Positions 13,922 to 29,858 of a DNA stretch of 64,000 nucleotides are shown piece after piece; the stretch's first letter is position 1, and the number at the start of each line of letters is the position of its first letter. Origin of the DNA: Stappia sp. 28M-7. GTDB taxonomy: Bacteria; Pseudomonadota; Alphaproteobacteria; Rhizobiales; Stappiaceae. Under the pieces are notes generated by a model that did no database searches, was not told the DNA's origin, and worked only from the letters and a program-made list of their open reading frames with translations. The stretch lies in contig NZ_JACMIA010000004.1 of assembly GCF_014252955.1 (NCBI RefSeq), positions 1-64,000 on the forward strand, given 5' to 3'. The position numbers and the translations under genes were made by a program.

Positions 13922-13976
13922 GGGCGGCCCTTCCCCGCTGACGGGTTTCGAGGCGCGGAACGGTTCCGGGCCGCCC
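13922..13976 (+). promoter_or_regulatory. Leader hairpin before the 128-aa ICE protein
   Basis: A perfect 9-bp inverted repeat (GGGCGGCCC at 13922-13930 and GGGCCGCCC at 13968-13976). It ends a few nucleotides before the Shine-Dalgarno GGGAG and the ATG at 13994. It belongs to the leader-hairpin set described in the findings. Confidence 0.6.
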
Positions 13977-13993
13977 GTCGCGGGAGAACATCG

Positions 13994-14380
13994 ATGCACG
14001 ATCGCGATTACAGTGCCGACATCGCCAAGGCCCTCGCCACGTTGGGCGGCCATCTGACGATCGGCCGCGGAGGGTTCAGTCTGCACTACCTGAATGAGTA
14101 TGGCGGCCAGAGCAGCCTGTCCGGCTACGATTGCAACACCGTGAAACAGCAGGCCATCGCCGCCGGACTTCCGGTGATCGACAGCCGCTGTGTCGACTTC
14201 GACAAGGTGGCCAGGCTCGCCATCTCCGGGCCGATGATCTGTGTTGGCGGTGCGCCCGACCCTGAGCCATGGGGCGAGTTCTCCTATGCCCCGCTGGCCG
14301 TAGTTGCCCGCGCCTACGCCGCAGCCGGGGCGGAGGTCTACAACCTCGACCTGGAGGAAGCCGCGGGGGCGGCGGCCTGA
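13994..14380 (+). CDS. Conserved ICE hypothetical protein, 128 aa
   Basis: Begins at ATG 13994 behind GGGAG and a hairpin leader. It contains ADIAKALATLGGHLTIG, LSGYDCNTVKQQAI and an Ala-rich C-terminus. No catalytic or nucleic-acid-binding motif is visible. The protein is compact, without signal peptide or membrane segment. It sits between the PP-loop gene and parB in the maintenance block, so a role in element stability is possible but unproven. Confidence 0.75.
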   Translation: MHDRDYSADIAKALATLGGHLTIGRGGFSLHYLNEYGGQSSLSGYDCNTVKQQAIAAGLPVIDSRCVDFDKVARLAISGPMICVGGAPDPEPWGEFSYAPLAVVARAYAAAGAEVYNLDLEEAAGAAA

Positions 14381-14405
14381 AGAGGGAGAGGGAAGTGGGT
14401 GTCTT

Positions 14406-14452
14406 CGTGACGAGCCTGGTTGGGGAAAGAGGGCTTTCTCCGGCTCGTCACG
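14406..14452 (+). promoter_or_regulatory. Leader hairpin before parB
   Basis: A perfect 11-bp inverted repeat (CGTGACGAGCC at 14406-14416 and GGCTCGTCACG at 14442-14452) encloses a second 8-bp stem (GGGGAAAG/CTTTCTCC, 7 of 8). The last G of the right arm is the first base of the parB Shine-Dalgarno GGAG, so folding would affect ribosome access. No U-tract follows, which argues against a simple terminator. Confidence 0.65.
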
Positions 14453-14463
14453 GAGAACCTGAC

Positions 14464-16572
14464 ATGACAAAGGCGAAAATTGAGAAGATTACGCTGTCCC
14501 AGGCGCGGGACATTCCATTCGACAGGCTGGCGCTTTCGAGCCGCAACGTCCGGCGGGTGCGGGCCGGTGTATCGATCGAGGAACTGGCCGAGGACATCGC
14601 CCGGCGCACGCTGTTGCAGTCCCTGAGCGTGCGGGCGGTGATCGACGAAGACGGTCAGCCCACCGACAGATACGAGGTGCAGGCCGGCGGCCGCCGTTAC
14701 CGGGCGCTGGAGCTGCTGGTCAAGCAGAAGCGGCTGGCGAAGAATGCCCCGATCCCCTGCATCGTGCGGGAGGACGGCATTCTGGAAGAGGATTCGCTGG
14801 CCGAAAACTGCCAGCGCGTTTCACTCCACCCGGTGGATCAATTCCGTGCCTTCCAGTCGCTGAAGGAACAGGGAGTGGGCGAGGAGGAGATCGCCGCCCG
14901 CTTCTTCGTGACGCCGCAGATCGTCAAGCAGCGGCTGAAGCTCGCCAGCGTGTCGCCCAAGCTGCTGGAAGTCTATGCCGATGACGGCATGTCGCTGGAG
15001 CAACTGATGGCCTTCACGATTTCGGACGACCATGCCCGGCAGGAACAGGTCTGGGAGACCGTGCAGCGCGGCTACAACAAGGAGCCCTATTTCATCCGCA
15101 AGCTGCTGACGGAAAACACCGTCCGCGCCACCGACAAGCGTGCCCGCTTCGTCGGGCTCGCGGCCTATGAGGAAGCTGGCGGCATCGTGCTCCGCGACCT
15201 GTTCTCGCAGAATGACGAAGGCTGGCTCCAGGATGTGGCGCTGCTGGAGAAGCTTGTCACCGAGAAGCTCGCGGCCGAGGCCGAGGCAATCAAGGCCGAG
15301 GGCTGGAACTGGATCGAGGTCGCTTCGGACTTCCCCTATGGCCACACTGCCGGCCTGCGCCGCGTCATGGGCGAAACGGAGACGCTGTCCGACGAGGAGC
15401 ACACCCGCCGCGAAGCCCTGCGGTCGGAGTTCGAGGAGATCGAACAGCGCTATTTCCAGGAAAGCGACGAGGATCTGCCCGAGGAGGTCGATCGGCGTCT
15501 CGCCGAGATCGAGGCGGCACTCGATGCCTTCGAGAACCGGCCCGTCATCTACGACGCGCAAGAGGTCGCCCGCGCCGGCGCATTCGTCAGTATTGATGGT
15601 GATGGCAAGCTGAAGGTCGAGCGCGGCTATCTCCGGCCCGAGGACGAGGCGCCGGCCGAAACGGGCAGCGATGGTCAGGACACGGATGCCTTCATCCGCG
15701 ATCATGTCGAGATCGTCCATGTCGGCCGGAACGGCGAGACGGGTCAGGTCGATCCCGCCGCCGCGCTATCCGGCAATGGGGCGCAAGCTGACGATGCCGA
15801 AGCCGAGGAAGACGGTCTCAAGCCGCTGTCCGAGCGCCTGGTCATGGAACTGACGGCGCACCGGACGCTCGCCCTGCGGGACGCGCTGGCGAACGACCCG
15901 GACATCGCCTTCCTCGCCGCACTGCACGCCTTCGTTCTCCAGACCTTCTGGCGGTATCCGACGGCGAGTTGCCTGGAGATTCGCGCCGAAAGCCCGACGC
16001 CGACCGTTCAGGGGCCGGGGCTGAAGGAGAGCCAGTCGGCGAAGGTCATTGACGAGCGGCACGCCAATTGGGAGAAGCAGCTTCCCGACGAGCCGGAACT
16101 GCTCTGGGAGTTTCTCTGCGATTTCGACCACGACAGCCGCATGGCGCTCTTCGCCCATTGCGTCTCGCTCACCGTCAACGCGGTGCATGAGCCGTGGAAC
16201 CGGACACAGGGACGCCGGCATCATGCTGACCAACTCGCCTGCGCGGTTTCGCTCGACATGACCGCGGCCGGGTGGAAGCCGACGGTGGAGAACTACCTCA
16301 ATCGCGTGCCGAAGGCCCGCATCCTCGAGGCGGTCACCGAGGCCAAAGGCGCCGGCATGGCGGAGCTCATCGAAGGGCTGAAGAAGTCCGACATGGCCGA
16401 ACAGGCCGAGCGGCTTCTGGCCGATACCGGCTGGCTGCCCGAGCCGCTGCGCACGCCCGGCGTCGAGACCGTAGTGGTCACGGGCGAACCGGGGTCCCCG
16501 GAGCCGGATGCCTCGCCCTCGGAGTCTTCCGCCGCCGCCGAACTTCCGGCATTCCTCACCGCTGCCGAATAA
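14464..16572 (+). CDS. ParB/RepB/Spo0J-family protein, long ICE type
   Basis: 702 residues from ATG 14464 (GGAG 8 nt upstream). The N-terminus is a ParB-type domain: RNVRRVRAGVSIEELAEDIA, QAGGRRYRALELLV near residue 74 and ENCQRVSLHPVDQFRAF near 118. A helix-turn-helix follows (IAARFFVTPQIVKQRLKLAS, near 143). The remaining 500 residues are an acidic, helix-rich extension that chromosomal ParB proteins (about 300 aa) lack. No parA partner is adjacent, so it may act as a nuclease-like or regulatory ParB rather than as a classical segregation protein. It is the first gene of a unit closed by a hairpin at 16601-16645. Confidence 0.88.
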   Translation: MTKAKIEKITLSQARDIPFDRLALSSRNVRRVRAGVSIEELAEDIARRTLLQSLSVRAVIDEDGQPTDRYEVQAGGRRYRALELLVKQKRLAKNAPIPCIVREDGILEEDSLAENCQRVSLHPVDQFRAFQSLKEQGVGEEEIAARFFVTPQIVKQRLKLASVSPKLLEVYADDGMSLEQLMAFTISDDHARQEQVWETVQRGYNKEPYFIRKLLTENTVRATDKRARFVGLAAYEEAGGIVLRDLFSQNDEGWLQDVALLEKLVTEKLAAEAEAIKAEGWNWIEVASDFPYGHTAGLRRVMGETETLSDEEHTRREALRSEFEEIEQRYFQESDEDLPEEVDRRLAEIEAALDAFENRPVIYDAQEVARAGAFVSIDGDGKLKVERGYLRPEDEAPAETGSDGQDTDAFIRDHVEIVHVGRNGETGQVDPAAALSGNGAQADDAEAEEDGLKPLSERLVMELTAHRTLALRDALANDPDIAFLAALHAFVLQTFWRYPTASCLEIRAESPTPTVQGPGLKESQSAKVIDERHANWEKQLPDEPELLWEFLCDFDHDSRMALFAHCVSLTVNAVHEPWNRTQGRRHHADQLACAVSLDMTAAGWKPTVENYLNRVPKARILEAVTEAKGAGMAELIEGLKKSDMAEQAERLLADTGWLPEPLRTPGVETVVVTGEPGSPEPDASPSESSAAAELPAFLTAAE

Positions 16573-16600
16573 GCGGCTGTTCTCTCAAATCCATCCACTT

Positions 16601-16654
16601 AAGCCCGGTCCCCGTGCGGCGGAATGTCCGCGCGGGGCCGGGCTTCGCGTTTTT
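16601..16654 (+). terminator. Strong hairpin with T-run after parB, also leader of the next gene
   Basis: AAGCCCGG (16601-16608) pairs with CCGGGCTT, with further CCCCG/CGGGG and GCG/CGC pairing inside, and a CGCGTTTTT tail at 16646-16654. This is a good intrinsic terminator, yet GGAG and the ATG at 16667 follow at once, so it is also the 5' leader of the next gene. Confidence 0.7.
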
Positions 16655-16666
16655 CTGGAGATCGAA

Positions 16667-17266
16667 ATGCTGAAATCGACCAACCCTACCTACACCCCAT
16701 GGGGCAAAGCCGACTATGAAAAGGTCTATGCCGAGGGCATCGTCTTCTACGGCACACCGTCGCATGGCGGCTTCAAGCTCGACCGCGAGCGAAACGCTAA
16801 GGTTCATCCTGCTCTGCGCGAGAGGGACGGATTTTACGAGGAGGATTGCGCCTGGGCGAAAGTCGCCTTTACCTTTCCCGAAGTCTTTTCCGAGAAGGAC
16901 CGCGAAGCGGCGATCCGCACGCTGAAGGAATGGTATCCCGACGAATACAAGACCGTCGCAGGCGTTATCCTTGCCCCCGGCGAATCCCACGTCAAAGACG
17001 ATCGGCTGTTCCTTGAACGCCACGCCAACGACTGGATCGTCATCAGCGCGATAAGGTCGGACCAGCATCCCGGCATGGTCGAGTGCATCGCCACAATAGG
17101 CGGCCGACGCGGGCATTGGGGCAAGCCCGATTCTACTGAGCGGCGCTATCTCGTGCCGGATGCCGAGTATGACCGGCGCGGCAAATTCGGCTTCGTCATC
17201 GATCCCACCCGCCACGCGCTCTATGACGGCCCATCCAGCTTCATCGCACGGAGGGCGGCGTCATGA
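16667..17266 (+). CDS. DUF7007-like ICE protein
   Basis: 199 residues from ATG 16667 with GGAG upstream; longer reading into the hairpin is not supported. The N-terminus (TPWGKADYEKVYAEGIVFYG, then TPSHGGFKLDRERN) is characteristic of a family I recall as DUF7007. No catalytic motif is evident. A central stretch has VAGVILAPGESHV followed by acidic and aromatic residues. Its TGA overlaps the start of the next gene (ATGA), so at least two genes are co-transcribed. The function is unknown and the name is from memory. Confidence 0.75.
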   Translation: MLKSTNPTYTPWGKADYEKVYAEGIVFYGTPSHGGFKLDRERNAKVHPALRERDGFYEEDCAWAKVAFTFPEVFSEKDREAAIRTLKEWYPDEYKTVAGVILAPGESHVKDDRLFLERHANDWIVISAIRSDQHPGMVECIATIGGRRGHWGKPDSTERRYLVPDAEYDRRGKFGFVIDPTRHALYDGPSSFIARRAAS

Positions 17267-17616
17267 AATTCATCGTCACCCTTCAGGCCACGGCCGAAAT
17301 CGAGGAGCGCTGGGAAATTGAAGCCACGAGTACGGAAGAAGCGCAAGCCATCATCGATGATGGCCTGCTCCATGAGCACCGATTCATCCGTGACAAGGTT
17401 CTCGGCGAAGAACGCGACCGCGAGATTCTGTCAATCATCCCGGCGCCCTCGGAAGAAGAACCATGCTGCCAATGCCGGAACTGCAATTGGCATGGGTCAG
17501 TCGATAAGGCCGACCCCGTTCATGATATGTGGTCGCGTGTGCTGCCGGGCGAAATTATGCCGGCGGGCGATTGTCCCGACTGCGGCGCGCTCATTCATCT
17601 GGTTTCGGGAGCCTGA
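17263..17616 (+). CDS. Small zinc-ribbon protein
   Basis: 117 residues. The first 60 form a beta-alpha unit (FIVTLQATAEIEERWEIEA, then STEEAQAIIDDG) resembling DpnD/PcfM-type small domains. The rest has paired cysteines CCQCRNCNW and CPDCG, which should bind one zinc ion. It is coupled to the upstream gene by a 4-nt overlap and separated by 3 nt from the next. Role unknown; a nucleic-acid or protein adaptor is plausible. Confidence 0.7.
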   Translation: MKFIVTLQATAEIEERWEIEATSTEEAQAIIDDGLLHEHRFIRDKVLGEERDREILSIIPAPSEEEPCCQCRNCNWHGSVDKADPVHDMWSRVLPGEIMPAGDCPDCGALIHLVSGA

Positions 17617-17619
17617 CAC

Positions 17620-17838
17620 ATGGCTATTCCCGATCACATCCGCGCCAATTTCGAGACTCTGCTGCGTGCGGCCAGAAACGGCGACCTTGCCTTGATGGAA
17701 TGCACGGATGCGTCCAATGGCATACCGCGTTATGTGCTCGCCGCCGTGCAGCGTGACGATGGCGGCGAATACTTTTTCACGCCGTTCGGCCATCTGGCGG
17801 AGGGGAATCCCTACGTGGCTTCCCACCCGCCAGAGTGA
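17620..17838 (+). CDS. DUF6117-like small protein
   Basis: 72 residues beginning MAIPDHIRANFETLLRAARN, then GDLALMECTDA, followed by a beta-rich PRYVLAAVQRDDGGEYFFTP segment. This resembles short ICE proteins I remember as DUF6117. It has no motif for a specific function. It is the third gene of a compact unit starting at 16667, and the next hairpin leader begins right after it. Confidence 0.7.
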   Translation: MAIPDHIRANFETLLRAARNGDLALMECTDASNGIPRYVLAAVQRDDGGEYFFTPFGHLAEGNPYVASHPPE

Positions 17839-17845
17839 GAGCAGA

Positions 17846-17917
17846 CCGGGATGAGGGCGGGCCGGGAGCAAGCAAGAGAGAGCCTGCCCCGGCATTTTCC
17901 TGAAACCTCAATCCCGG
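17846..17917 (+). promoter_or_regulatory. Leader hairpin before the methylase/helicase gene
   Basis: CCGGGATGAGG (17846-17856) pairs with CCTCAATCCCGG (17906-17917) with a single bulged base. An inner GCCGGG/CCCGGC stem lies within. The Shine-Dalgarno GGAG overlaps the end of the right arm and the ATG is at 17927. Confidence 0.6.
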
Positions 17918-17926
17918 AGCAATCTC

Positions 17927-20900
17927 ATGAATCTGATGACGCCAGCGGCGGCGGTGACGGCCGCCGCACCCATCCGTGCGCCCGAAGAAGAGGCCGCCTG
18001 CATCCTCAAGGCGGCGGAGCGCATTCTCACCGGTCTCGAACGCGGCCTTCTCATCGAGGCCCGCGTCCTGCGGCAAGCGATGGAGGAGGCGTTCGGCGGT
18101 TCGGACGCCGAGGGTTTCTGGACCTGGAAAGCCGCATATGAAGCTTGCGAAGCCGCGCAGGTTCTGTTCCTCCGCAAATATGGTCGCGCCATGCGGGAGA
18201 AGGCGGGCTCGCCCGCCGCGCGGCTCGCCATGCTTTCCCGCATCGCCGGACTTCTTCCCACCCACACCCGTCGCACGCAGGAGTCCGAGGAGTTCCAGCA
18301 GTTCAGCACACCCATGCCGCTTGCCTATGCGGCCAGCATCGCGGCGGGCCTCACCGGCGACGATGCGGTGCTGGAGCCGTCGGCCGGCACGGGGATGCTT
18401 GCCGTATTCGCCGAGATCATGGGTGCGCGGCTGGCGCTCAACGAGATCGCCGATACGCGGGCCGCGCTTCTGCGGCGGCTGTTCCCGGACAGCCCGGTCA
18501 GCACGCATGACGCGGCCAGCATCGATGATCGGCTGGCGGACGATGTCGCTCCGTCGGTTGTTCTCATGAACCCGCCCTTCTCGGCGGCGCTCCACGTGCA
18601 GGGGCGCGTGTCCGACGCGGACTTCCATCACGTGCGCGCGGCGCTGGCGCGGCTGCCCGAGGGCGGTCGCCTGGTCGCCATCACCGGGCACAATTTCCCC
18701 GTCGATAAGCTGAACGGCGCGGTGCGTTTCACCTGCGTCGTGGATGGCTCCGTCTATTACAAGCACGGCACGACCTTCGACACGCGCCTCACCGTCATCG
18801 ACAAGTCGCTTGAATCGGCTTCGTCGCCGGTATTGCCGCGCGCGGAGAACGCCGCCGAATTGCTCGCCCGCCTCATCGAACATGTGCCGCCTCGCTTGGA
18901 GGCGGACGGCGAGATCGGGTTCGGTACAGCGGCGAAGCCCGCTGTTGCGCGCAAGGTCGCGCCAATCGCACGCAGACCGCAGCCCGCCATTTCTGCGGCG
19001 CCCGATGCTGTCGAGCTCTCCTATGAACCCATCGAATGGAAGCCGGCCGAGGGCGCCGACCTGACCGACGCGCTCTACGAGGGCTACGCCCTGCAATCGA
19101 TCCATATCCCGGGCGCCAAGCCGCACCCGACGAAGCTGGTGCAGTCGGCGGCCATGGCCTCGGTGGCGCCGCCGCACCCTTCCTATCGGCCGCATCTTCG
19201 GGTGCATATAATAAAGAGTGGCATCCTGTCCGACGCGCAGCTTGAGAGCGTCATCTATGCCGGCGATGCGCATTCCCGGCATCTCGCGGGATCGTGGACG
19301 GTCGATGAGACCTTCGACAATATCCATGCCGCACCGGAAGGCGCCGAGAATGCCGTGCGCTTCCGCCGCGGCTGGTTCCTGGGCGACGGCACCGGCTGCG
19401 GCAAGGGCCGGCAGGTCGCCGGCATCATCCTCGACAACTGGATCAAGGGCCGCCGCAAGGCGGTGTGGATCTCCAAGTCCGACAAGCTGATCGAGGACGC
19501 GCAGCGCGACTGGTCGGCGCTGGGCATGGAGCAACTGCTCGTCCAGCCCCTGTCGCGCTTCAAGCAGGGCACGCCGGTCCGGCTGTCGGAAGGGGTGCTG
19601 TTCGTGACCTACGCCACCCTGCGCAACGAGCCGCGCCTGCGCCAGGTCATCGACTGGCTGGGAGACGGCTTCGACGGCGTGATCGTTTTCGACGAAGCCC
19701 ATGCCATGGCCAACGCCGCCGGCAGCAAGGGTGAGCGCGGCGAACAACTTCCCTCCCAGCAAGGTCGTGCCGGCCTGCGCCTGCAGCGCGCCTTGCCGGA
19801 CGCTCGCATCGTCTATGTCTCCGCAACCGGCGCCACCGACGTGCGCAACCTCGCCTATGCCGAGCGGCTGGGCTTGTGGGGCGGCGAGGATTTCCCTTTC
19901 GCCAATCGAGCCGAGTTTGTGCAGGCGGTCGAGGCCGGCGGGGTCGCCGCCATGGAGGTGATGAGCCGCGACATGAAGGCCCTCGGCCTCTACACGGCGC
20001 GGTCGCTGTCCTATGAGGGCGTCGAGGTCGAGATCGTCGACCACAATCTCACCCCGGCGCAGGTGGAAACTTACGACGCCTATGCTGAAGCGTTTCAGGT
20101 GATTCACTCCAACCTGAATGCCGCCCTCGAAGCCTCGAACGTCACCGGGGAGCGAAAAACCCTCAACGGCCAGGCGAAGTCCGCCGCCCTGTCGGTGTTC
20201 GAGGGCGCCAAGCAGCGTTTCTTCGCAGCGCTGCTTTCGGGGCTGAAGACCGCCACGCTCATCAAATCCATCGAGGCGGACTTGGAGACGGGCCATGCCG
20301 CAATCGTACAACTGGTTTCGACTGGCGAGGCGATCCTCGATCGCCGTCTGTCCGAGATTCCAGCCGAGGAATGGGCGGACCTGAACGTCGATTTGTCGCC
20401 CCGCGACGTGATCCTCACCTATTTGCAGCATGCCTTCCCGACGCAGCTTTATGAGCCTTATACCGACGAAGACGGCAATCTGCGCTCGCGCCCCGCGTTC
20501 GATGCCGAGGGCAACCCGATCCAGTGCCGCGAGGCCGTCGCCTCCCGTGACCGGATGATCGAGCGTCTCGCCTCGCTCGATCCCGTGCCCGGCGCGCTCG
20601 ACCAGATCATTCAACGCTTCGGGACAGACAAGGTAGCGGAAGTGACGGGACGGTCACGGCGGATCGTGCGCAAGGGCGATCGGCTTTGTGTCGAAAACCG
20701 TCCGCCCTCGGCCAATCTCGCCGAGACGCAAGCCTTCATGGATGACGAGAAGCGCATCCTGGTCTTCTCCGACGCCGGCGGGACGGGCCGCTCCTACCAT
20801 GCCGACCGGGGCGCGAAGAATCAGCGCCTGCGCGTCCATTACCTGCTCGAAGCGGGATGGAAGGCCGACACCGCCATCCAGGGACTCGGCCGCTCCAACC

Positions 20901-22183: not shown

Positions 22184-22186
22184 CAT

Positions 22187-23200
22187 ATGTCCCGCGCCGC
22201 CGATCTGGCGCGCCGTCTCGGTGAACAGGCCGAGGCGGTGTGCCGCTATTACCTGCCGAACGGCCGCCGCCAGGGCCGATACTGGATCTGCGGCGATGTC
22301 ATGGGAACTCCGGGGCGGAGTCTTTATGTCCGCCTTTCCGGAGAACGTGCCGGGAAGTTTTGCGATACGGCGACCGGGGAGCATGGCGATCTTCTCGATC
22401 TCATCGCCCTCAATCGCGGCCTCGGCTTCCGCGCCGCGCTCGATGAGGGGCGGGGATTCCTCAGCCTGCCGGTTCTGCCGATCCGCCAGGTAGCCCCGTC
22501 CGCGCCGTCCGGCTCCTCCGAAGCGGCGCGGCGGCTCTTTGCCGCGTCGAAGCCGATCCGGGGCACGCTGGCGGAACGCTATCTCCAAGGCCGCGGCATC
22601 ATTCTGCCTGCGGACGTTGCCGCTCTCCGCTTTCATCCGCGCTGCTTTCATCGCGGGCCGCAAGGCCGCGAGATATGGCCGGCGCTCATCGCCGCCGTCA
22701 CCGATCTCGATGGCGCCATCACCGGTGCGCATCGCACCTGGCTTGATCCTGAGGGCGGCAAGGCGCCTCTCGATCAGCCCCGCCGCGCCATGGGCCATCT
22801 CGCCGGGAACGCGGTCCGGCTCGGCGTTGCGTCCGACGTCCTGACGGCGGCGGAAGGCATCGAAACGGCGCTGGCGCTCAAGGCCGTGATGCCCGCCATG
22901 CCAGTCGTCGCCGCACTCTCCGCCGCCCACCTCGCTGCCCTGATTCTGCCGCTGGCGCTGCGTCGCCTCTATGTCGCGCGCGACAACGACGGGGCCGGGC
23001 GCCTTGCGGTGGAACGATTGCGCGCCCGCGCCAGAGCCGACGATATCGACATCCGCGCCCTCGCCCCGAGGACGGAGGATTTCAACGCCGATCTCCTCAC
23101 CCTCGGCCCGGACCGGCTCACGGCATGGCTCGCCGAGCAGCTCGCCCCGGACGATGTTCAGCGTTTCCTGGTCGCGGATGAGCCGAGGCGATGCGTGTGA
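22187..23200 (+). CDS. Toprim-domain primase-like protein (DUF7146 type)
   Basis: 337 residues. The N-terminal 90 residues (CRYYLPNGRRQGRYWICGDV, then CDTATGEHGDLLDLIA) resemble the zinc-binding or DNA-binding start of plasmid primases. The C-terminal Toprim domain has VLTAAEGIETALALKA (conserved Glu) and LYVARDNDGAGRLAVERL (DxD-type acidic residues near 262). It probably primes DNA synthesis or binds DNA during conjugative replication. It is co-transcribed with the upstream methylase/helicase (3-nt gap), and a long structured region follows. Confidence 0.85.
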   Translation: MSRAADLARRLGEQAEAVCRYYLPNGRRQGRYWICGDVMGTPGRSLYVRLSGERAGKFCDTATGEHGDLLDLIALNRGLGFRAALDEGRGFLSLPVLPIRQVAPSAPSGSSEAARRLFAASKPIRGTLAERYLQGRGIILPADVAALRFHPRCFHRGPQGREIWPALIAAVTDLDGAITGAHRTWLDPEGGKAPLDQPRRAMGHLAGNAVRLGVASDVLTAAEGIETALALKAVMPAMPVVAALSAAHLAALILPLALRRLYVARDNDGAGRLAVERLRARARADDIDIRALAPRTEDFNADLLTLGPDRLTAWLAEQLAPDDVQRFLVADEPRRCV

Positions 23201-23247
23201 AATCCGTCAGCGCCGGACGGGGAAGGGGAGAGCATCGGGACCGCCTT

Positions 23248-23427
23248 CCGGTTCGGCAGGGGCCGCGCCACGGCCTTTCCAAGAGAGGGATCTGCCAGCG
23301 CTGGCCGGCTTTGCAACGGCCTGACGGCCGTCCTCCACTTCGTTGCGGCCCGGCGGGTGCAAAGCCGCCCTTTGGCGCTGGCGGGCGATCCCCGGAAAGG
23401 CCGCGATGGGCGCGGCCTCGGAACCGG
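23248..23427 (+). ncRNA. 180-nt nested-hairpin leader before the DUF2493 gene
   Basis: Five perfect stems are nested in order. CCGGTTC (23248-23254) pairs with GAACCGG (23421-23427). GGCCGCGCC (23261-23269) pairs with GGCGCGGCC (23409-23417). GGCCTTTCC (23272-23280) pairs with GGAAAGGCC (23394-23402). GCCAGCGC (23294-23301) pairs with GCGCTGGC (23375-23382). GGCTTTGCA (23307-23315) pairs with TGCAAAGCC (23358-23366). The apical loop has a small ACGGCC/GGCCGT hairpin and a 21-nt motif repeated at 29066-29086. The SD sequence GGGAG touches the outer stem. The function is unknown: cis-regulatory leader, terminator or separate RNA. Confidence 0.7.
23330..23350 (+). repeat. 21-nt motif, copy 1
   Basis: Reads GTCCTCCACTTCGTT then GCGGCC, in the apical loop of the 180-nt leader. 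A second copy with a single base change (C for G) is at 29066-29086 in the leader region of the DUF736 gene. Confidence 0.6.
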
Positions 23428-23438
23428 GAGACAGACCC

Positions 23439-24380
23439 ATGCTGCACGATCTCTTCACCGACGACGCCTTCGAACCCCTTCACGCGGCATCGCCAACCGC
23501 CCATGTCCTCGACGAAATGGCGCTTCACGGCACCCGTCCCGGCCCGGACGATCCGGAGCGCCTGACGGTGCCCGAAGCCGACCGGGCCGAGCAGGAGATC
23601 GAGAACACCGCAGCCGCCCTCATCGCCCTAATGGCCGACACGGCGCTCGATGACGATCTCGACGACGTCCTCTGGGGCTTCGCCAATCTTTTCCACCGCC
23701 GCCTGGGCTATCTCGACCGCCTCCTCGACGACAACGAGGTGGCGCAGCGCCGTTTGCAGGAGGAGCAGGACGGCTCGGAGGTCAAGTCCGTCGAGCTCGA
23801 GCGCCTGATTGCCCGTGGCGAGGCATTGCTCGAACGCCGCGCCGCCTTCGAGAACCTCCGCGATCTTGCCGCCATCCAGTTCGAATCGGCGACCGGTTCC
23901 GCCTGGCGGCCGCATACCGGCTCGATGACGAACCGCAAGACGATGACGGCGGCCATGATCGACAGCCGCGATTTCATCGCCGCTAAGCGCCGGGCCGAGA
24001 TCGAGCCGCTGCTGCCCGCCGGGCCGCGCATCGCGTTCACCGGCGGCGTCGACTGCAACGACCACATCCGCATCTGGGAGGCCCTCGACAAGGCCCTCGC
24101 GAAGCACCCCGACATGGTGCTCATCCATGGCGGATCGCCGAAAGGCGCCGAGAAGATCGCCGCCTGCTGGGCCGACAATCGCAACGTGCCGCAGATCGTC
24201 TTCAAGCCCGATTGGACCCGCCACCGCAACGCCGCACCCTTCAAGCGCAATGACCGTATGCTCGAAGCGCTCCCAATCGGCGTCATTGCCTTCCCTGGTT
24301 CCGGTATCTCCCAGAACCTCGTCGATAAGGCGCGGAAGATGGGGATCGCCACATGGACCTTCGACAGCGGCGCCACATAG
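23439..24380 (+). CDS. DUF2493 (SLOG superfamily) ICE protein
   Basis: 313 residues from ATG 23439 behind GGGAG. The first 180 residues are charged and helical (VPEADRAEQEIENTAAALI, then LIARGEALLERRAAFENL). The C-terminal half is a Rossmann-like SLOG/DUF2493 domain: PRIAFTGGVDCNDHIRIWEA near 195, LIHGGSPKGAEKIAACWA near 228 and VIAFPGSGISQNLVDKA near 288. SLOG domains bind nucleotide-derived ligands, and this family is common in alphaproteobacterial ICEs. The ligand is unknown. The SIR2-HerA island begins immediately downstream. Confidence 0.88.
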   Translation: MLHDLFTDDAFEPLHAASPTAHVLDEMALHGTRPGPDDPERLTVPEADRAEQEIENTAAALIALMADTALDDDLDDVLWGFANLFHRRLGYLDRLLDDNEVAQRRLQEEQDGSEVKSVELERLIARGEALLERRAAFENLRDLAAIQFESATGSAWRPHTGSMTNRKTMTAAMIDSRDFIAAKRRAEIEPLLPAGPRIAFTGGVDCNDHIRIWEALDKALAKHPDMVLIHGGSPKGAEKIAACWADNRNVPQIVFKPDWTRHRNAAPFKRNDRMLEALPIGVIAFPGSGISQNLVDKARKMGIATWTFDSGAT

Positions 24381-24432
24381 GCGCCGCTCCAAAAGGGAAC
24401 GCGCTGGAATGGCCTGTCGGTCCCCAAATGAC

Positions 24433-24462
24433 GTGACAGTATTGGTGCACTTTGCATATCAT
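24433..24462 (+). promoter_or_regulatory. Sigma-70-like promoter of the SIR2-HerA module
   Basis: A -35 box GTGACA (24433-24438, 5 of 6 to consensus) and a -10 box TATCAT (24457-24462, 5 of 6) are separated by 18 nt. The predicted start near 24470 leaves a short leader before the ATG at 24487. This gives the module its own transcription independent of the ICE genes. Confidence 0.55.
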
Positions 24463-24486
24463 TTATCCGAGCATGGGACGACTGGC

Positions 24487-24696
24487 ATGGCACGGCGGTT
24501 AAGCAGGAAGGCATTTCGGACGACGGTCATCCTGACCGAATCGCAGCACAAGCGAATTCTGGAAATCGCTGAGGCAAACGACGCGTCGATCGCATGGGTG
24601 CTGCGCCAGGCTCTCGACCGTTATTTGGAGACCGAGGGCAAGCCAGCTCGAGGTTCGGACGCGAAGACCTGCCCATCTTCCGGCAGCGATGTGTAA
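24487..24696 (+). CDS. Ribbon-helix-helix protein of the SIR2-HerA module
   Basis: 69 residues from ATG 24487 (MARRLSRKAFRTTVILTESQ). The short beta strand (FRTTVIL) followed by two helices (HKRILEIAEANDASIAWVL, then RQALDRYLET) is a CopG/Arc-type DNA-binding fold. It ends 12 nt before the SIR2 gene, behind the promoter at 24433-24462. It is therefore the likely transcriptional regulator of the defence genes. An antitoxin-like role is possible because no operator has been mapped. Confidence 0.7.
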   Translation: MARRLSRKAFRTTVILTESQHKRILEIAEANDASIAWVLRQALDRYLETEGKPARGSDAKTCPSSGSDV

Positions 24697-24708
24697 GGAG
24701 AGGCAGGT

Positions 24709-26130
24709 ATGACCGAGCAATCTAAATACCAGCTTCTCTCCCCTGTGTCCGCCGGGGAAAGCGAAGACTTGCTGGCTGGGAAGCCTTCGGAAGACGCGCT
24801 GCGACGTATTCAGGCGCTCCTCGCTGACTGGCTTCGGATGGAGAACGTCATTGTCTTGACGGCCGCCGGGTGCTCGGTCGGCGCCGGTGGTCGATTGATG
24901 GCTGGCCCCAGGACAAACAATCTCGAATGCCTTGTTCTCGATGCGGTCGAGAAATGCGAGCTTCCTCCGAAGGCGGCCTCCATCATGCGCCATAGGAAGG
25001 CAACTTGGCCGACAGAAGAGAATGGTGGGCCCCTTGGGTTTGAAGACTGGCTCAGCTACCTGTTCAATGCGTCGGGCCTGACGAACCCGGACAGCTCGCC
25101 GGTCGACGCGGTGGTCTGGAAAGGTGACGTGCCAGAGGGCGAGGAGCCTCCTCTGATGCTCGCCGACGGTGATTTAGCCGAACTGCGTAAACTGGTTGAG
25201 AAGGCCATCTTCGCTGAATGTGCCCTCCAGATTGATCGTGGTGAACTCTCGGGTACGAGCGACGGTCAGTCATCGGGCCATATTCCCTTTCTCGCGAAGC
25301 TGATTGCCCGCGACACGAACCTCGGGCGGACCCATCTCTTCACACTCAACTACGACACGCTGTTTGAGCAGGCGATGGAAGAACTGGGCGTCCAGTATTT
25401 TGACGGATTTTCTGGCAGAGCCAGCTCTCGCTTTGATCCAGCCGTGTATGGGCTTGATATCTATTACCCTGGCGACGTCTCCGAGGGGCGGGTGCGCCGC
25501 TTCGACAAATTCCTGCAATACTACAAGCTTCACGGTTCCCTGCATTGGTATGTCGGCGATGACGGGATGTATCGCGCCCGTCACCGCGACCTTTCGTTTG
25601 CCAGCGACTACAGGAAGCTCCCTGCTGAAGAGAAGGCGGCGAAGCTACAGTCCGAAGGATTCTCCACGATTAACTCCTTCGGCATCCTGCCAACCTCGCA
25701 GAAGTTCACTCAGACGTTGGACATGCCCTATGCGCATCTGTTCCGGCTCTTTCATGCGCGCCTGAACCAACCGCAGACGTTCTTCCTCGTTGTCGGATAC
25801 GGTTTTGGTGACGACCACGTGACACGGATCATCGAGACGGCCTTGATGAATCCGTCTCTAGTCATGCTGGTTGTGGAGCCCAATCCACAAAGCGCGATCG
25901 TGGAAAGAGTCCGCCGCTATCAGAGCCTGGGTCAGAGGGCGTTTGTCCTGACTGAGCGACTCGGTGCGGGCGAAAAATGCTCATACAAGATCGCCACGTT
26001 CGCTGATTTCGCGCAGAACATCATGCCGGATGTAAAGTGGCTCGATGACTATAGGCGCCTTCGGTCTTTTGAAGAGCAGATTAGGAAGACAGAAGACAGG
26101 AAGCCGGATGCCCCGGAGAGCGCCACCTGA
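24709..26130 (+). CDS. SIR2-family NADase, defence protein of a SIR2-HerA system
   Basis: 473 residues with GGAGAGG ahead of ATG 24709. A Rossmann-type start (VIVLTAAGCSVGAGGRLMAG, near residue 47), NYDTLFEQAMEELG (catalytic Asn region, near 213) and KLHGSLHWYV (catalytic His, near 274) mark a SIR2_2-type domain. In SIR2-HerA (Nezha-type) phage defence the SIR2 subunit degrades NAD+ and can act on DNA in complex with HerA. The stop codon overlaps the herA start (TGATG), fixing a 1:1 partnership. The GAG motif departs from the GAGIS of deacetylase sirtuins, as is common in defence SIR2 proteins. Confidence 0.87.
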   Translation: MTEQSKYQLLSPVSAGESEDLLAGKPSEDALRRIQALLADWLRMENVIVLTAAGCSVGAGGRLMAGPRTNNLECLVLDAVEKCELPPKAASIMRHRKATWPTEENGGPLGFEDWLSYLFNASGLTNPDSSPVDAVVWKGDVPEGEEPPLMLADGDLAELRKLVEKAIFAECALQIDRGELSGTSDGQSSGHIPFLAKLIARDTNLGRTHLFTLNYDTLFEQAMEELGVQYFDGFSGRASSRFDPAVYGLDIYYPGDVSEGRVRRFDKFLQYYKLHGSLHWYVGDDGMYRARHRDLSFASDYRKLPAEEKAAKLQSEGFSTINSFGILPTSQKFTQTLDMPYAHLFRLFHARLNQPQTFFLVVGYGFGDDHVTRIIETALMNPSLVMLVVEPNPQSAIVERVRRYQSLGQRAFVLTERLGAGEKCSYKIATFADFAQNIMPDVKWLDDYRRLRSFEEQIRKTEDRKPDAPESAT

Positions 26131-28223
26131 TGGAACAGCCGCGCATCATAGGGCATGTGGTCGCTGTCAGCGGCTTCAGGCTGAAAGTGGAACTTTCCCC
26201 TGACGCGAAGTCATCGTCTCGGGCCACGCCGGATGGGGTGCAGCGCGCAGTTGCCATTAACTCCTTCCTGACCTTTGACCTGGGAGCCGGCACACATGCA
26301 ATCGGGCTGCTCAGCGATCTTGAAGCTCGGGAGAGCTACGACCCGACCCGTGACGAAGAGCTTTCTCTGGAACTGACGAAGCCACGGCGGATCGCGTCAG
26401 TGCAATTGCTTGGAACGGTGAAGCAGACCGGCAAATCCGGATGGAAATTTGATCCAGGCATAACGGTCCTGCCGACCCTTGATACGCCGGCTGAGGTAGC
26501 AAATCCCGACGTTCTGTCAGGTATCTTCGCCCATCCGCCCGAGCGGAACAAACCACGCGATTGGTCAGAGGGGGATTACGACTTCCCACTGGAAATCGGC
26601 CATCAAACGGGTGACGAAAATACGCGGGTGAAAGGGTCCTTCAATGACCTCTTCGCCCGGCCGCTCGCAGTTGTAGGCAACACCGGGTCTGGAAAATCAT
26701 ACACGGTCGCGAGCCTAATCCGAGGCATCATAGAGCATGAGAAGTTCGCCGTCGCCTCCAAGGCAGAACCTCATGTCTTCATCCTGGATATCAACGGCGA
26801 GTATGCAAGCGCCTTTCTTGATAAGTCACAGGCGTCCTATGCGCGGGATCCAAATAAGATTTACCTGAGTGGGCAGGAATTCTGCCTGCCTGCGTGGCTC
26901 ATGAATGGGGAGGAGGTTTGCGACTGGCTTCAGGCGTCCGAAGCAACACAGGAGCCCGTTCTCAAGGACTGGTGGTCGATCGCTAAAGCCAATCGAGGCG
27001 GCGCGGCTTCCTACGATCCCTTGCAAGTCGCCATAGGAAAGATTGATTCTGCATTGGCTTGGCTTGATGACCCGCGACAGCCGGCCAACGGCACCTTCGA
27101 CGTGTATATCAGTCACGCCCAGCAATATGTGCCTGATATAGACTGGAATACCTTCAATGGGATTCCGAACTGGACGCCCGATGCGACAAATCAGTGGCGA
27201 AAGGTCGCGAACGAAAAGGCGGTTAGGGATCGGCTCAGTGAAATCCGATCAACGTTGCTGGAGAAGATTTCGGCGCGGCAGAATGAGGGCGTGAACTTTG
27301 CCAAGACCGCCGACGCGCCGCGGTTCATCGCTGTGCGCGAGTTTCGCGATCCCAATTTGGTCGATAGATCCACCGACCAGGAAGGCAGCAAACGGATTGA
27401 TCAGTATCTCCTTACGTTGAAACTGCGGCTTCGGACACGCCTCGATGACAGACGCTGGCAGTCGTTTTTCAGCTATGAGGAACAGGGTATCCAGAGCTAC
27501 GAGGACTGGATGCAAAAGCTCGGGGTCGGACAAAAGTCCGGTTCAAGGGTTTCCGTCCTCGACTTCTCCATGCTGTCTTCGGAGGTTCTGCCCTTCGCAT
27601 GCGCGCTCCTTGGAAGGCTTCTCCTTGAAACACGGGAAATGCTGCGTCCCGACGTACGCAGTCGATACCCCTGGGTGCTGGTTTTGGAGGAAGCCCACAA
27701 CTACGCAAGACCGCCAGGTCGCGTGGAGGACCGAGGACAAAGCCTGTCTAGGAGGGCGTTCGAGCGCGTCGCCAAGGAGGGGCGTAAATTTGGGCTGTCA
27801 CTCATTGTTGCCAGCCAGCGCCCCAGCGAGATAAGCCCGACCATCATTAGCCAGTGCGCCAATTTCTTCTCGCACCGGCTTCAGAACCCAGATGATATTG
27901 ATCATTTCCGGCGCATCATCCCCAAGCAGGCCCAGCGGCTACTTGATCAGGTAACTGTGCTTGCAGCGGGGGAAGCTATTGTGTTTGGCAGTTCCGTGCA
28001 CGTTCCTGTACGGGTTCAAATCAAGCTGCCGACCCAAGAGCCATGGAGCGCGACCGCCGCACCCTTTGTAGACTGGAGCGGGGAAGAGGCGTTTCCGCTT
28101 GCGGATGTCATCGAGAACTGGGGTCTGACCAAAGAAGTTCCCGAAGCCGTAACGGCATCACCCGCTGAACATGCTGAGGCGGCAAGTTCGGCTGATGACC
28201 TCGATGATGAAATCCCATTTTGA
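26130..28223 (+). CDS. herA: HerA-like hexameric ATPase (DUF87), partner of SIR2
   Basis: 697 residues. An N-terminal HAS-barrel-like beta region (IGHVVAVSGFRLKVELSPDA) is followed by a Walker A GNTGSGKSYTVASL near residue 183, a Walker B WVLVLEEAHNY near 515 and a downstream IVASQRPSEISPTIISQCAN segment typical of FtsK/HerA motors. HerA forms a hexameric DNA translocase; in SIR2-HerA defence it assembles with SIR2 into a large complex. The C-terminal 50 residues are acidic and low in complexity. It starts inside the SIR2 stop codon. The module is not interrupted, so it should be functional. Confidence 0.88.
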   Translation: MEQPRIIGHVVAVSGFRLKVELSPDAKSSSRATPDGVQRAVAINSFLTFDLGAGTHAIGLLSDLEARESYDPTRDEELSLELTKPRRIASVQLLGTVKQTGKSGWKFDPGITVLPTLDTPAEVANPDVLSGIFAHPPERNKPRDWSEGDYDFPLEIGHQTGDENTRVKGSFNDLFARPLAVVGNTGSGKSYTVASLIRGIIEHEKFAVASKAEPHVFILDINGEYASAFLDKSQASYARDPNKIYLSGQEFCLPAWLMNGEEVCDWLQASEATQEPVLKDWWSIAKANRGGAASYDPLQVAIGKIDSALAWLDDPRQPANGTFDVYISHAQQYVPDIDWNTFNGIPNWTPDATNQWRKVANEKAVRDRLSEIRSTLLEKISARQNEGVNFAKTADAPRFIAVREFRDPNLVDRSTDQEGSKRIDQYLLTLKLRLRTRLDDRRWQSFFSYEEQGIQSYEDWMQKLGVGQKSGSRVSVLDFSMLSSEVLPFACALLGRLLLETREMLRPDVRSRYPWVLVLEEAHNYARPPGRVEDRGQSLSRRAFERVAKEGRKFGLSLIVASQRPSEISPTIISQCANFFSHRLQNPDDIDHFRRIIPKQAQRLLDQVTVLAAGEAIVFGSSVHVPVRVQIKLPTQEPWSATAAPFVDWSGEEAFPLADVIENWGLTKEVPEAVTASPAEHAEAASSADDLDDEIPF

Positions 28224-28940
28224 GATTTGTCGGGTTTCAGGCGAGGCGCTGACGGACATTCAGATCCCCTACTGGCATTCGTGATGGTGTGCAGGTCGCC
28301 CCCCAAATTCCGATACCTCACCCGCGCCACAGTGTCTTGTCGCGGCATGGCTGGGCGCCCGCGCGGGACAAGCCCCGCGCGCCGGGCTCTCGTGAACCGA
28401 ACCGCCTTCGGCGTTTCGGCCTTCGGCTTCGATCCCTGGCGCGAACGCCCGCTGCGCGGGCGGGTGGCGGTCCAACGGCGCCGGCCAAGACGCGCCCCGC
28501 TGGACGCGATGGTGACGGGGCCTGGAGGGGAGAATGCGGCGTGGGCCATGGCTCCCAAGGCCAGGTTCGAACGCCATCCTTCCTGCATCTCCGGCTCCGA
28601 TGGGCGTGCGCATGAGGTCGAAAGGGGCGCGGCACGCAGGCGGTCGGATTGGTCTCGCTGCCTGCGGCTACGGTGGCGCAGCGGCGCCAGTTTCATCGCC
28701 GCGGCGATGCCGTCAACGGCGCGCAGCGGGAGCTTTGGACATGCCCGGCGCGCGGTCGAAGGCCGAGTGGTTGGCGATTTTCGTGTCGTTGCAACCCCGG
28801 TCAAGCCGTCGTCCGATGCGGTGAACTCGGTGACGGGGAAGGCCATGGCGCTCCTTCGCCGACTGTTCATCGAGGCAGTCACCATCCCTGCATGTCTCTC
28901 ATCGCGTAAATCCCGCGCCGGACCGTTCAACCCGCCGTCC
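28224..28940. other. 717-bp region without a supported gene
   Basis: Follows herA. Open frames exist on both strands but show arginine- and alanine-rich shadow composition and no recognisable family. Short perfect hairpins are present, for example GCGCGGG/CCCGCGC at about 28355-28375 and CGCCCGC-TGC-GCGGGCG at about 28446-28462. It may be the old ICE spacer between the DUF2493 and DUF736 genes that now flanks the inserted SIR2-HerA module. Confidence 0.4.
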
Positions 28941-29056
28941 GGGAAAATTTCCCCTGCCGCGAAAAGTGCTCCGCTGACGCTGCGCCCCTTCGGGTGACGG
29001 CGAAGCCGTCAACTTTTCCCGGCATTCCTCGCGCCCGCTTCGCTCCAAATTTTCCC
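28941..29056 (+). ncRNA. Nested-hairpin region upstream of the DUF736 gene
   Basis: Three nested perfect stems: GGGAAAATTT (28941-28950) with AAATTTTCCC (29047-29056); GAAAAGT (28961-28967) with ACTTTTC (29012-29018); and GACGGC-GAA-GCCGTC (28996-29010). The design is the same as the 180-nt leader at 23248-23427, with unrelated arm sequences. Confidence 0.6.
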
Positions 29057-29065
29057 TCCCGGTGG

Positions 29066-29086
29066 GTCCTCCACTTCGTTCCGGCC
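29066..29086 (+). repeat. 21-nt motif, copy 2
   Basis: GTCCTCCACTTCGTT then CCGGCC, 20 of 21 identical to 23330-23350. It lies between the nested hairpin at 28941-29056 and the start-proximal hairpin at 29129-29175. Confidence 0.6.
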
Positions 29087-29128
29087 CTCCGCTCACGCTA
29101 CGGGTGAACCGGCCCGCCTATGCGGTCT

Positions 29129-29175
29129 TTTCGCTGGAGCCATCGCAGGGATGGTCTCTGCGACGAACAGCGAAA
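29129..29175 (+). promoter_or_regulatory. Leader hairpin touching the DUF736 ribosome binding site
   Basis: TTTCGCT (29129-29135) pairs with AGCGAAA (29169-29175), and TCGCA (29143-29147) with TGCGA (29159-29163). The right arm runs into the Shine-Dalgarno AAAGGA 9 nt before the ATG at 29187. Confidence 0.6.
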
Positions 29176-29186
29176 GGATCATCACC

Positions 29187-29525
29187 ATGGCCATCACCCT
29201 CGGCACGTTCACCAAGCAGAACGACGGCAGCTTCACCGGGACCCTCAAAACCCTCAACGTCACCGCTAACCTCGTCGTCGTCCCCGTAGACAAGATGTCC
29301 GAAAACGCCCCCGACTATCGCGTCTATGCCGGCAACGGCCAGCGCTACGAGGTCGGCGCCGGCTGGAGCCAGGTCGCCAAGTCGAGCGGCGAGACCTACC
29401 TGAACCTCAAGATCGCCGCGCCGGAATTCGGCCCCAACTGGGTGCGCGCCCGCCTCGTCAAGCTGGAGACGCCGATGGAGGACGGCACCTCGCACCTCGC
29501 CCTGTGGGAGCCGCGCGAGCGCTGA
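29187..29525 (+). CDS. DUF736 family protein
   Basis: 112 residues from ATG 29187. The pattern MAITLGTFTKQNDGSFTG, LKTLNVTANLVVVPV, PDYRVYAGNGQRYEVGAGW and the end LVKLETPMEDGTSHLALWE is typical of DUF736, a small all-beta protein found almost only on alphaproteobacterial plasmids and ICEs. It is often expressed with transfer genes but has no known biochemical role; the OB-like look suggests nucleic-acid binding. It has its own structured leader and a terminator just downstream, so it forms a single-gene unit. Confidence 0.93.
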   Translation: MAITLGTFTKQNDGSFTGTLKTLNVTANLVVVPVDKMSENAPDYRVYAGNGQRYEVGAGWSQVAKSSGETYLNLKIAAPEFGPNWVRARLVKLETPMEDGTSHLALWEPRER

Positions 29526-29544
29526 TCCCGCCCACTCCCGAGGA

Positions 29545-29569
29545 CCCCGCCGGAGCGCATCCGGCGGGG
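29545..29569 (+). terminator. Intrinsic-type terminator after the DUF736 gene
   Basis: A perfect 10-bp stem (CCCCGCCGGA/TCCGGCGGGG) with a 5-nt loop, 20 nt after the stop codon, followed by CTTATCTT. The U-tract is weak but the stem is strong. Confidence 0.65.
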
Positions 29570-29683
29570 CTTATCTTCATGCATTCCGCCCTGCCCGACC
29601 GCCGCAATCCAAGCGGTGTCGGCGCTGGTCGCGCCGACGGGCTTTCCGTCTCGATCTTCCCAGTCTGCCATCCGGCGCGACGA

Positions 29684-29839
29684 GCCTGTAAAGGATCGCG
29701 GGCACCCTCCAAAATGCTCCGTTCCGCTCGCGCTCCACTCCGCATTTTGGCTCCTCCCGCGCCCGCTTCGCGGCGGCTTTGCCGTCCTTGACAGGCTCTA
29801 TCCGGATGACCGGGGACCCCGTTCTCGACGGGAGAACGG
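29684..29839 (+). ncRNA. Nested-hairpin leader before the 70-aa protein
   Basis: GAGCCTGTAAAGGA (29684-29697) pairs with TCCTTGACAGGCTC (29775-29788) at 13 of 14 positions and encloses CCAAAATG/CATTTTGG (29709-29716 and 29743-29750). A separate perfect hairpin CCGTTCTC-GACGG-GAGAACGG (29819-29839) lies next to the Shine-Dalgarno AAGGAGG and the ATG at 29859. Apart from these, 29526-29858 holds no gene. Confidence 0.6.
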
Positions 29840-29858
29840 CTCAATCAAGGAGGTTCCC

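Follow-up and report, generated by a model that had tools for sequence, protein, structure and literature searches.

Two families of conserved hairpins precede genes in the putative leading region of alphaproteobacterial conjugative elements

The closest described counterpart of the elements considered here is Frpo of the F plasmid, which, as set out in passages of the original report, folds on entry into the recipient and drives the early leading genes (PMC9849209). According to passages of the survey by Samuel et al. (PMC11541004), the search for Frpo combined similarity to five known sequences with the presence of -35, -10 and UP boxes; an element lacking such boxes would probably have been missed. 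Here, a stretch of 64,000 nucleotides (nt) from Stappia sp. 28M-7 (positions 1 to 64,000 of contig NZ_JACMIA010000004.1, assembly GCF_014252955.1; contig C4 of a 5.1-Mb genome), hereafter the window, was analyzed, in which long inverted repeats had been predicted before seven genes of an integrative and conjugative element (ICE). Frpo has been worked out for the F plasmid, and the question of how establishment genes are expressed on entry arises likewise for ICEs and for Ti, Ri and rhizobial plasmids. In a literature search confined to open-licence papers, no such elements were found described for conjugative elements of the Alphaproteobacteria.

Comparison with related loci supports the view that these hairpins are shared, conserved features that carry compensatory changes and recur before several genes. 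Rather than forming the single structural device first proposed, they appear to fall into two families of opposite strand bias, each homologous within itself and designated A and B, together with one probable terminator and one unassigned hairpin. All eight intervals of the original prediction do hold inverted repeats. Specifically, the longest perfect arms measure 9 base pairs (bp) before a gene for a 128-amino-acid (aa) protein (13922-13930/13968-13976), 11 bp before parB (14406-14416/14442-14452), 8 bp before a DUF7007 gene (16601-16608/16638-16645), 7 bp before a methylase/helicase gene (17846-17852/17911-17917), 10 bp in each of two pairs before a DUF2493 gene (23306-23315/23358-23367 and 23271-23280/23394-23403), 8 and 10 bp before a DUF736 gene (29129-29136/29168-29175 and 28941-28950/29047-29056), and 9 bp before a gene for a 70-aa protein (29709-29717/29742-29750). 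The statement that arm sequences differ is true only while the window is viewed by itself; once relatives are included, a conserved sequence emerges for each family.

Folding of the last 100 nt before each start codon, compared with dinucleotide shuffles, bore out for most leaders in the window the expectation that they would beat shuffles of the same composition: z-scores were -4.7 for parB, -3.2 for the 128-aa gene, -3.0 for methylase/helicase, -2.9 for DUF7007 and -2.4 for DUF736, while over this length the 70-aa gene (-1.8) and DUF2493 (0.0) fell short. Control starts in the window were not exceptional (DUF6117 +1.8, toprim +0.7, S26 -0.6, an rdfS-like HTH gene +0.6). When the window was combined with samples of up to 30 relatives, z lay below -2 in 29/31 leaders of parB, 20/31 of methylase/helicase and 5/5 of the 128-aa gene, in 3/9 of DUF7007, 5/31 of DUF736, 2/31 of DUF2493 and 0/6 of the 70-aa gene, and in 2/31, 3/21, 9/31 and 13/31 of the S26, DUF6117, toprim and HTH controls, respectively. 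Because the DUF2493 and DUF736 structures extend further upstream than 100 nt, these were tested by covariation instead. Folded as DNA, the stretch at 23248-23430 gave z -5.8 on the minus strand and -6.0 on the plus strand, and those at 28925-29181 and 29660-29850, folded as the minus strand, gave z -3.8 each.

Family A consists of branched structures of 180-300 nt, which stop a short way ahead of the start codon in 120 DUF2493 genes and in no fewer than 68 DUF736 genes. Its copy before DUF2493 (23248-23430, minus strand; ATG at 23439) belongs to a type shaped as a long branched rod, of which the window holds a short version, and is matched at 23262-23417 on the minus strand by R1, a covariance model built from DUF736 leaders only (48.3 bits, E 2.3e-11). 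The copy before DUF736 (28881-29181, minus strand; ATG at 29187) is diverged: R1 matches 28881-29156 on the minus strand with 17.2 bits (an E of 0.0072 in a search of 466 kb and of 0.00099 when only the window is searched), an nhmmer model of DUF736 leaders matches 29019-29217 (E 9.7e-8), and the model of DUF2493 leaders matches weakly at 29066-29181 (E 0.0024). Among the arms listed above, 28941-28950/29047-29056 are part of the apical arm of this element, and 29129-29136/29168-29175 form a local hairpin adjoining the Shine-Dalgarno sequence (SD) of DUF736. Since R1, made from DUF736 leaders, finds the DUF2493 copy, and a hidden Markov model (HMM) of DUF2493 leaders finds the DUF736 copy, the two elements are homologous.

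Relatives of the toprim gene upstream of DUF2493 occur in 81/249 genomes of the order, and relatives were sampled as 40 stretches from genomes plus 80 named loci. DUF2493 lies at most 1.5 kb from toprim in 113 of the 117 sequences holding both genes, across a gap of 223-370 nt (in 2 of the 113 it reads 37-50 nt owing to the reading of the toprim frame) that is conserved in sequence and shape over the 113 loci; where toprim is some 2.2-2.4 kb off (L079, L105, L122), the element still adjoins DUF2493. The HMM of DUF2493 leaders produced 255 hits in 119/121 sequences, behind which stood DUF2493 in 120 cases and DUF736 in 68, with seven more judged to be DUF736 in a wrong frame; eleven apparent genes on the minus strand reflect self-overlap of the palindromic element.

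Compensatory changes in relatives, the check proposed with the original prediction, were found. Structures were predicted without G-U pairs, so that neither strand was favored, from 42 sequences per subtype. For the DUF2493 type (alignment A3), 113 leaders gave 109 unique sequences and 92 below 93% identity, from which 42 were picked by hand; for the DUF736 type (alignment A2), 76 were reduced to 57 and then to the 42 chosen, odd lengths being removed by hand. Changes on both sides of a pair were seen in 34/73 pairs of the DUF736 type (shuffles 11.4 ± 2.0; slid registers 6-14) and in 39/76 of the DUF2493 type (shuffles 21.2 ± 2.3; slid registers 16-22), values reached by 0/500 shuffles in either case.

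Beyond the sampled loci, R1 matches 34/299 Pseudomonadota genomes, four of them in other classes, and in two of these four that were read the gene behind the element is DUF736 by sequence. In PLSDB, BLAST locates the element of the DUF736 type in 560 plasmid records, including 377 predicted to be conjugative; the figures rise to 618 and 414 if the query reaches about 20 nt into the DUF736 gene. The element of the DUF2493 type is located in 81 records. As a known structured RNA neither family could be placed, Rfam 15 giving no match at gathering score on the window; a low-threshold scan covering 8-40 kb of the window and two relatives yielded Xoo5 inside the DUF736 gene (E 0.81) in the former and five matches (E 0.15-0.51) in the latter, all below threshold, of which one, to Acido-Lenti-1 (24.4 bits, threshold 37, E 0.15), overlaps the family A element of L052. 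Additional copies were observed in passing. A second related block in the same genome (G000:C2, about 126-151 kb) contains four matches to family A and three to family B, and C1 holds a fifth match to family A. In Ri and rhizobial plasmids, partial copies (36.1 to 39.9 bits) occur some hundreds of bases downstream of DUF736 and ahead of small hypothetical genes (L155 21168-21280, L157 21164-21275, L159 21123-21231), and a weak R1 match at 22499-22568 (14.3 bits) inside the toprim coding sequence is probably due to chance.

Family B is exemplified by the hairpin before parB (14402-14456, plus strand; ATG at 14464), which scores 57.2 bits (E 2.8e-14) with R2, a model made from parB leaders only whose alignment includes this very leader. 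The consensus of parB leaders is GCTTCGTGACGGGTTGGAGGTCGAGAGAGAGGCTCTCGGCCGCCCGTCGCGGAGA, the apical loop is GAGAGAG, and 7 of the 20 pairs in the model show changes on both sides. Hairpins had been described as ending next to the SD; at parB the SD, GGAG, lies within the stem itself and pairs with CUUC in the alignment model. R2 also recognizes the leader of the 128-aa gene (13932-13986, plus strand; ATG at 13994; 25.8 bits, E 1.5e-4), in L072-L074 as well. The methylase/helicase hairpin (17832-17919, plus strand; ATG at 17927), characterized from a 48-sequence alignment with a plus-strand wobble bias, is related: R2 does not recover the window copy at E 0.1, and the link consists of HMM cross-hits, the HMM of this leader also matching 24 parB leaders. 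Alignments were made after reducing 83 parB leaders to 73 (identity and outlier filters) and then 40 (A4), and 50 methylase/helicase leaders to 48.

In total, 247 copies of family B were found in 111/129 sequences. The 244 with a reading frame behind them precede parB (87), methylase/helicase (71), ArdC (33), a DUF932-like gene (28), a 185-aa gene (10), RadC (4), a PAPS-reductase-like gene (3), the 128-aa gene (3), a 174-aa gene (2) and three genes seen once, identities being assigned by Pfam on one representative each and the DUF932-like name resting on a sub-threshold match. Family B occurs in 24/299 Pseudomonadota genomes, all in the class of the window. The window itself also contains, at 12974-13879, a protein judged to be PAPS-reductase-like, with a weak SspD match (36.8 bits), whose relatives elsewhere are the three cases preceded by family B. 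The median probability that the SD is unpaired was 0.15 for parB, 0.46 for methylase/helicase, 0.39 for both DUF2493 and DUF736, and 0.17-0.33 for four controls, values that make occlusion plausible for parB only. Family B looks like an mRNA leader hairpin, and at parB, where it encloses the SD, it would most likely hold translation down until it is opened or bypassed.

Which strand a conserved hairpin serves may be asked from its wobble pairs, since such a pair reads G.T only in the strand that keeps the structure and A.C in the other. Counts were made on pairs present in at least half of the sequences and at least 60% Watson-Crick (72/73 and 75/76 pairs). For family A, minus-strand G.T exceeded A.C by 70:35 cells and 29:11 sites in the DUF736 type (sign p 0.006) and by 96:58 cells and 23:14 sites in the DUF2493 type (sign p 0.19); earlier counts with folds allowing G-U ran in the same direction. 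Family B, in the same loci and by the same method, showed the opposite, with plus-strand ratios of 76:25 (parB) and 117:44 (methylase/helicase), and the contrast between the families on sites is significant (Fisher p 0.0005). Random one-mismatch hairpins in the same loci favor the plus strand, 459:287. The proposal that all these hairpins are mRNA leaders fits the 128-aa gene, parB and methylase/helicase, which favor the mRNA strand, but is not supported for DUF2493 and DUF736, which favor the complementary one.

Apical loops provide a second line of evidence. In DNA, triloops of the GNA type have unusual stability. Among 104 matched elements, the aligned apical arm shows a GNA triloop closed by C-G 48 times on the minus strand and once on the plus strand, a count that covers pattern-matched elements only (58/92 and 46/57). 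Counted for stems of at least 5 bp, C-G-closed GNA triloops number 51 on the minus and 3 on the plus strand among 78 triloop hairpins in the elements, and 177 and 60 among 1338 elsewhere in the loci. GNA loops are thus clearly enriched in family A and more one-sided than the background, which leans the same way. Together, wobble pairs and triloops favor, for family A, the strand complementary to the genes.

That strand may also be the one transferred. The block from parB to DUF736 is best explained as the leading region of an ICE of the ICEMlSymR7A type, with its origin of transfer (oriT) just upstream of rlxS, the gene for the relaxase RlxS (31842-33968, plus strand; NCBIfam NF041267, 1066.6 bits, cut-off 850). 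An HTH_17/excisionase-like gene, an S26 peptidase gene and DUF736 lie upstream of rlxS, which fits the order rdfS-traF-msi107-oriT-rlxS, with oriT upstream of rlxS, that passages on ICEMlSymR7A report (PMC11963761). A nic-like motif of the pattern YATCYTGC, CATCTTGC (31771-31778, minus strand), marks a candidate oriT upstream of rlxS; near rlxS the pattern occurs on the minus strand in 19/28 relaxase loci and on the plus strand in 1, with none in 9, and 8-mers of this type are common (17 in 64 kb, 12.2 expected). If cutting proceeds as in RP4, the minus strand would leave leftwards, DUF736, DUF2493 and parB would enter early, and the minus strand would be their template. From this, taken with the wobble and loop evidence, we infer that the family A structure lies in the transferred strand (T-strand) of the leading region.

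Ti, Ri and rhizobial plasmids, which use another relaxase, TraA, offer a comparison. Eight plasmid stretches were fetched, of which L153 and L154 hold no traC-traA gap; in 6/6 with the gap (pTiKerr27, pRi2659, pTiCFBP5477, Rm41 accessoryA, pTi_CFBP6549 and pRlX4, the Ti plasmids being kin) the DUF736 element points at it, preceding DUF736 on the traG/traC side. On the minus strand of the gap stands TAATTGCGCCCT, which we take to be the Ti nic region, in 4/4 plasmids searched. Passages on Ti-type traACD loci place oriT in this same gap (PMC8627217). The plasmid stretches also carry genes for ParB, for ArdC or an ArdC-like zincin and, in part, for helicase and toprim proteins, with partial family A copies before the ArdC or ArdC-like gene in 5/6 (annotated as ArdC in three and as zincin-like metallopeptidase in two). 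As stated in passages on R388, ArdC is required in the recipient and not in the donor (PMC7213743).

The explanation of these data that we prefer, tentatively and somewhat short of calling it probable, is that family A acts on the T-strand as a site of RNA start and family B as an mRNA leader restraining translation. Family A would form in the T-strand, which passes as a single strand into the recipient, its 5' end leading from oriT, and serves as the template of these genes; on entry family A would most likely fold into a partly double-stranded platform, where RNA synthesis, for an early message, a replication primer or both, would start for the gene directly behind, as at Frpo and single-strand initiation (ssi) sites on F. 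A broader proposition, that large branched single-stranded DNA elements lacking sigma-70 boxes form a new class that serves to activate or prime establishment genes while these are on the incoming T-strand, with a factor encoded by the element perhaps involved, while mRNA hairpins of family B silence the same class of genes in the resident state, and that the two form an entry-specific expression program across alphaproteobacterial ICEs, Ti, Ri and rhizobial plasmids and a few elements in other Proteobacteria, we regard as doubtful.

Several observations weigh against this explanation. The wobble bias is significant in one of the two family A subtypes only, its cells and sites are not independent, given shared helices and related sequences, and a naive one-mismatch scan of the element regions ran in the opposite direction (plus-strand G.T 20, A.C 12). 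The GNA contrast shrinks when stems of at least 4 bp (79:21, control 489:195) or at least 6 bp (15:2, control 43:16) are counted, and control hairpins themselves lean to GNA on the minus strand by about 3:1. An internal (apical) hairpin arm of about 70 nt, present in most relatives, is missing from the DUF2493 copy of the window. All genes of the block point one way, so that position alone cannot separate a structure complementary to the gene from one in the T-strand. Where DUF736 cassettes are inverted (L032, L038 and L153, the last being pRsp8C3a), the element is inverted with them, and in L093 such a cassette gives a weak hit on minus; because inverted cassettes keep the element with DUF736, the element follows the gene and not oriT. 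A pair of -35 and -10 boxes matching at least 9/12 was found in 0/84 elements on either arm, with means near those of shuffles. For family B, occlusion of the SD fails at methylase/helicase, and the HTH control, at 0.17, comes close to the 0.15 of parB. Separately, the elements in the inverted cassettes of L032, L038 and L153 have equal model scores, and three tyrosine recombinase genes lie between the copies of L153.

The absence of boxes rejects family A as a canonical single-stranded promoter of the Frpo kind, and the two promoter-like sites between 13 and 31 kb fall outside the elements of the window. Lacking boxes, the elements cannot be filed as Frpo, but might nonetheless act in an Frpo-like manner or prime synthesis. 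A role in priming second-strand synthesis on the T-strand, or in binding a protein there, with no part in transcription, is one alternative. It would suit the putative T-strand location, the several copies, the absence of sigma-70 boxes and the primase-like Toprim/DUF7146 gene adjacent in ICEs, a candidate partner, but priming has no need of an element that abuts a start codon and moves with the gene downstream (DUF736, DUF2493 and in part ArdC); in the two other-class genomes read, the element adjoins DUF736. We consider this unlikely, and equally so the view that family A serves DUF2493 and DUF736 as a leader within their mRNA, either of a riboswitch-like kind or bound by a protein: the ends of the element just before so many starts and the structured plus strand of the DUF2493 copy speak for such a leader, whereas wobble pairs and loops favor the other strand in loci where family B, under the same method, favors that of the mRNA.

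Slightly less likely again is the reading of family A as a non-coding antisense RNA, for which transcription of the minus strand would begin close to the start codon of the opposing gene. A structure adapted to the minus strand would also suit an RNA made from it, and some GNNA loops are present; against this, apical loops are triloops in 62/104 elements, where RNA would be expected to use tetraloops, neither family has an Rfam match at threshold, and one RNA facing the start codons of unrelated genes would be left unexplained. Moreover, the promoter expected at the right place gives no signal: in a search for the sigma-70 type only, a minus-strand promoter of at least 9/12 adjoins the element in 1/109 and 1/65 cases, with means as in shuffles. 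Finally, intrinsic terminators or 3' ends of upstream genes are very improbable for the hairpins generally and are rejected except at 16601-16655, where hairpin and T-run coincide, since the other hairpins have no T-run, terminator-like sites occur at chance level, and family A remains with DUF2493 even when toprim is far.

The original prediction had itself doubted that simple termination covers all the hairpins, and the T-run is indeed confined to the hairpin after parB and before DUF7007 (16601-16655, plus strand), where GCGTTTTTCTGG follows the stem. This is a probable intrinsic terminator of parB; in four relatives the stem is kept and the tail varied, and a terminator-like site is listed at 16630-16650, such sites in the region numbering 16 (shuffles 14.3 ± 3.5). 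The hairpins before the 70-aa gene (29684-29839; ATG at 29859), with a DNA fold z of -3.8 on the minus strand, are the unassigned ones: models of neither family find them, so that membership in A or B failed, and on the minus strand an arm vaguely like that of family A could not be confirmed as such.

The genes around the hairpins were identified as follows, all on the plus strand: parB (14464-16572; Pfam ParB_N 28.5 bits, cut-off 26.3); the methylase/helicase gene (17927-22183; AAA_34 and Strawberry-notch helicase C in Pfam), for whose methylase part, named in the original prediction, the Pfam search gave no match; the DUF7146/Toprim primase-like gene (22187-23200; Pfam); the DUF2493/YspA SLOG gene (23439-24380; Pfam YAcAr 107.6 bits, scored on a longer frame, 23343-24377), whose start at ATG 23439 corrects an earlier note from the sequence itself; and DUF736, of the msi110 family (29187-29525; Pfam 79.1 bits). 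Such msi110 genes, in passages on Mesorhizobium, are present on all elements with that conjugation cluster and frequently duplicated (PMC8627217). The DUF736 protein has a predicted all-beta structure (predicted local distance difference test score 88.9), which matched no PDB fold at E<=0.001; likeness to the single-stranded DNA-binding protein SSB, by analogy with Frpo before ssb, is not supported, the sequence match (E 0.54) being at chance level. Synonymous-site conservation at the DUF736 start was uninformative (9 sequences). Between DUF2493 and DUF736, within the putative leading region, lies a SIR2 and HerA pair (24709-28223; PADLOC 728.9 and 1045.2 bits).

Should family A act on the T-strand, many ICEs and hundreds of plasmid records (560) would contain specific sites open to experiment, and family A would allow the direction of transfer to be read from sequence and offer a handle on DUF736 and DUF2493 genes of unknown role. 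For any other conserved hairpin, too, the strand on which it acts can be sought with these wobble and loop tests.

Comparison with known systems brings out likenesses and differences alike. Of the features by which Frpo is recognized, a stable stem-loop upstream of leading genes is found in family A, and passages on Frpo and ssi sites (PMC9849209, PMC11541004) describe, as here, long hairpins immediately ahead of genes of the leading region, several copies in one element, and anti-restriction genes in the region; the location in the first-entering strand, also described there, would be shared by family A. Family A differs from Frpo in having no -35/-10 boxes, in being multi-branched, in standing before DUF736 and DUF2493, and in occurring in alphaproteobacterial ICEs and Ti, Ri and rhizobial plasmids, a distinction drawn from published descriptions and boxes. 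Priming sites on the T-strand or the lagging strand, RSF1010-type ssi among them, are likewise conserved single-stranded DNA hairpins near primase genes, but known ssi are far shorter and not tied to start codons; the hairpin promoters of the phage N4 virion RNA polymerase share single-stranded DNA hairpins with GNA-type triloops, but are small and read by a phage enzyme, whereas family A is one large branched fold. Family B, for its part, recalls SD-occluding 5' leader hairpins such as autogenous leaders and RNA thermometers in enclosing the GGAG of parB within a conserved stem, and differs from them in having no Rfam match at threshold and in recurring within a single mobile element upstream of many genes that are unrelated to each other.

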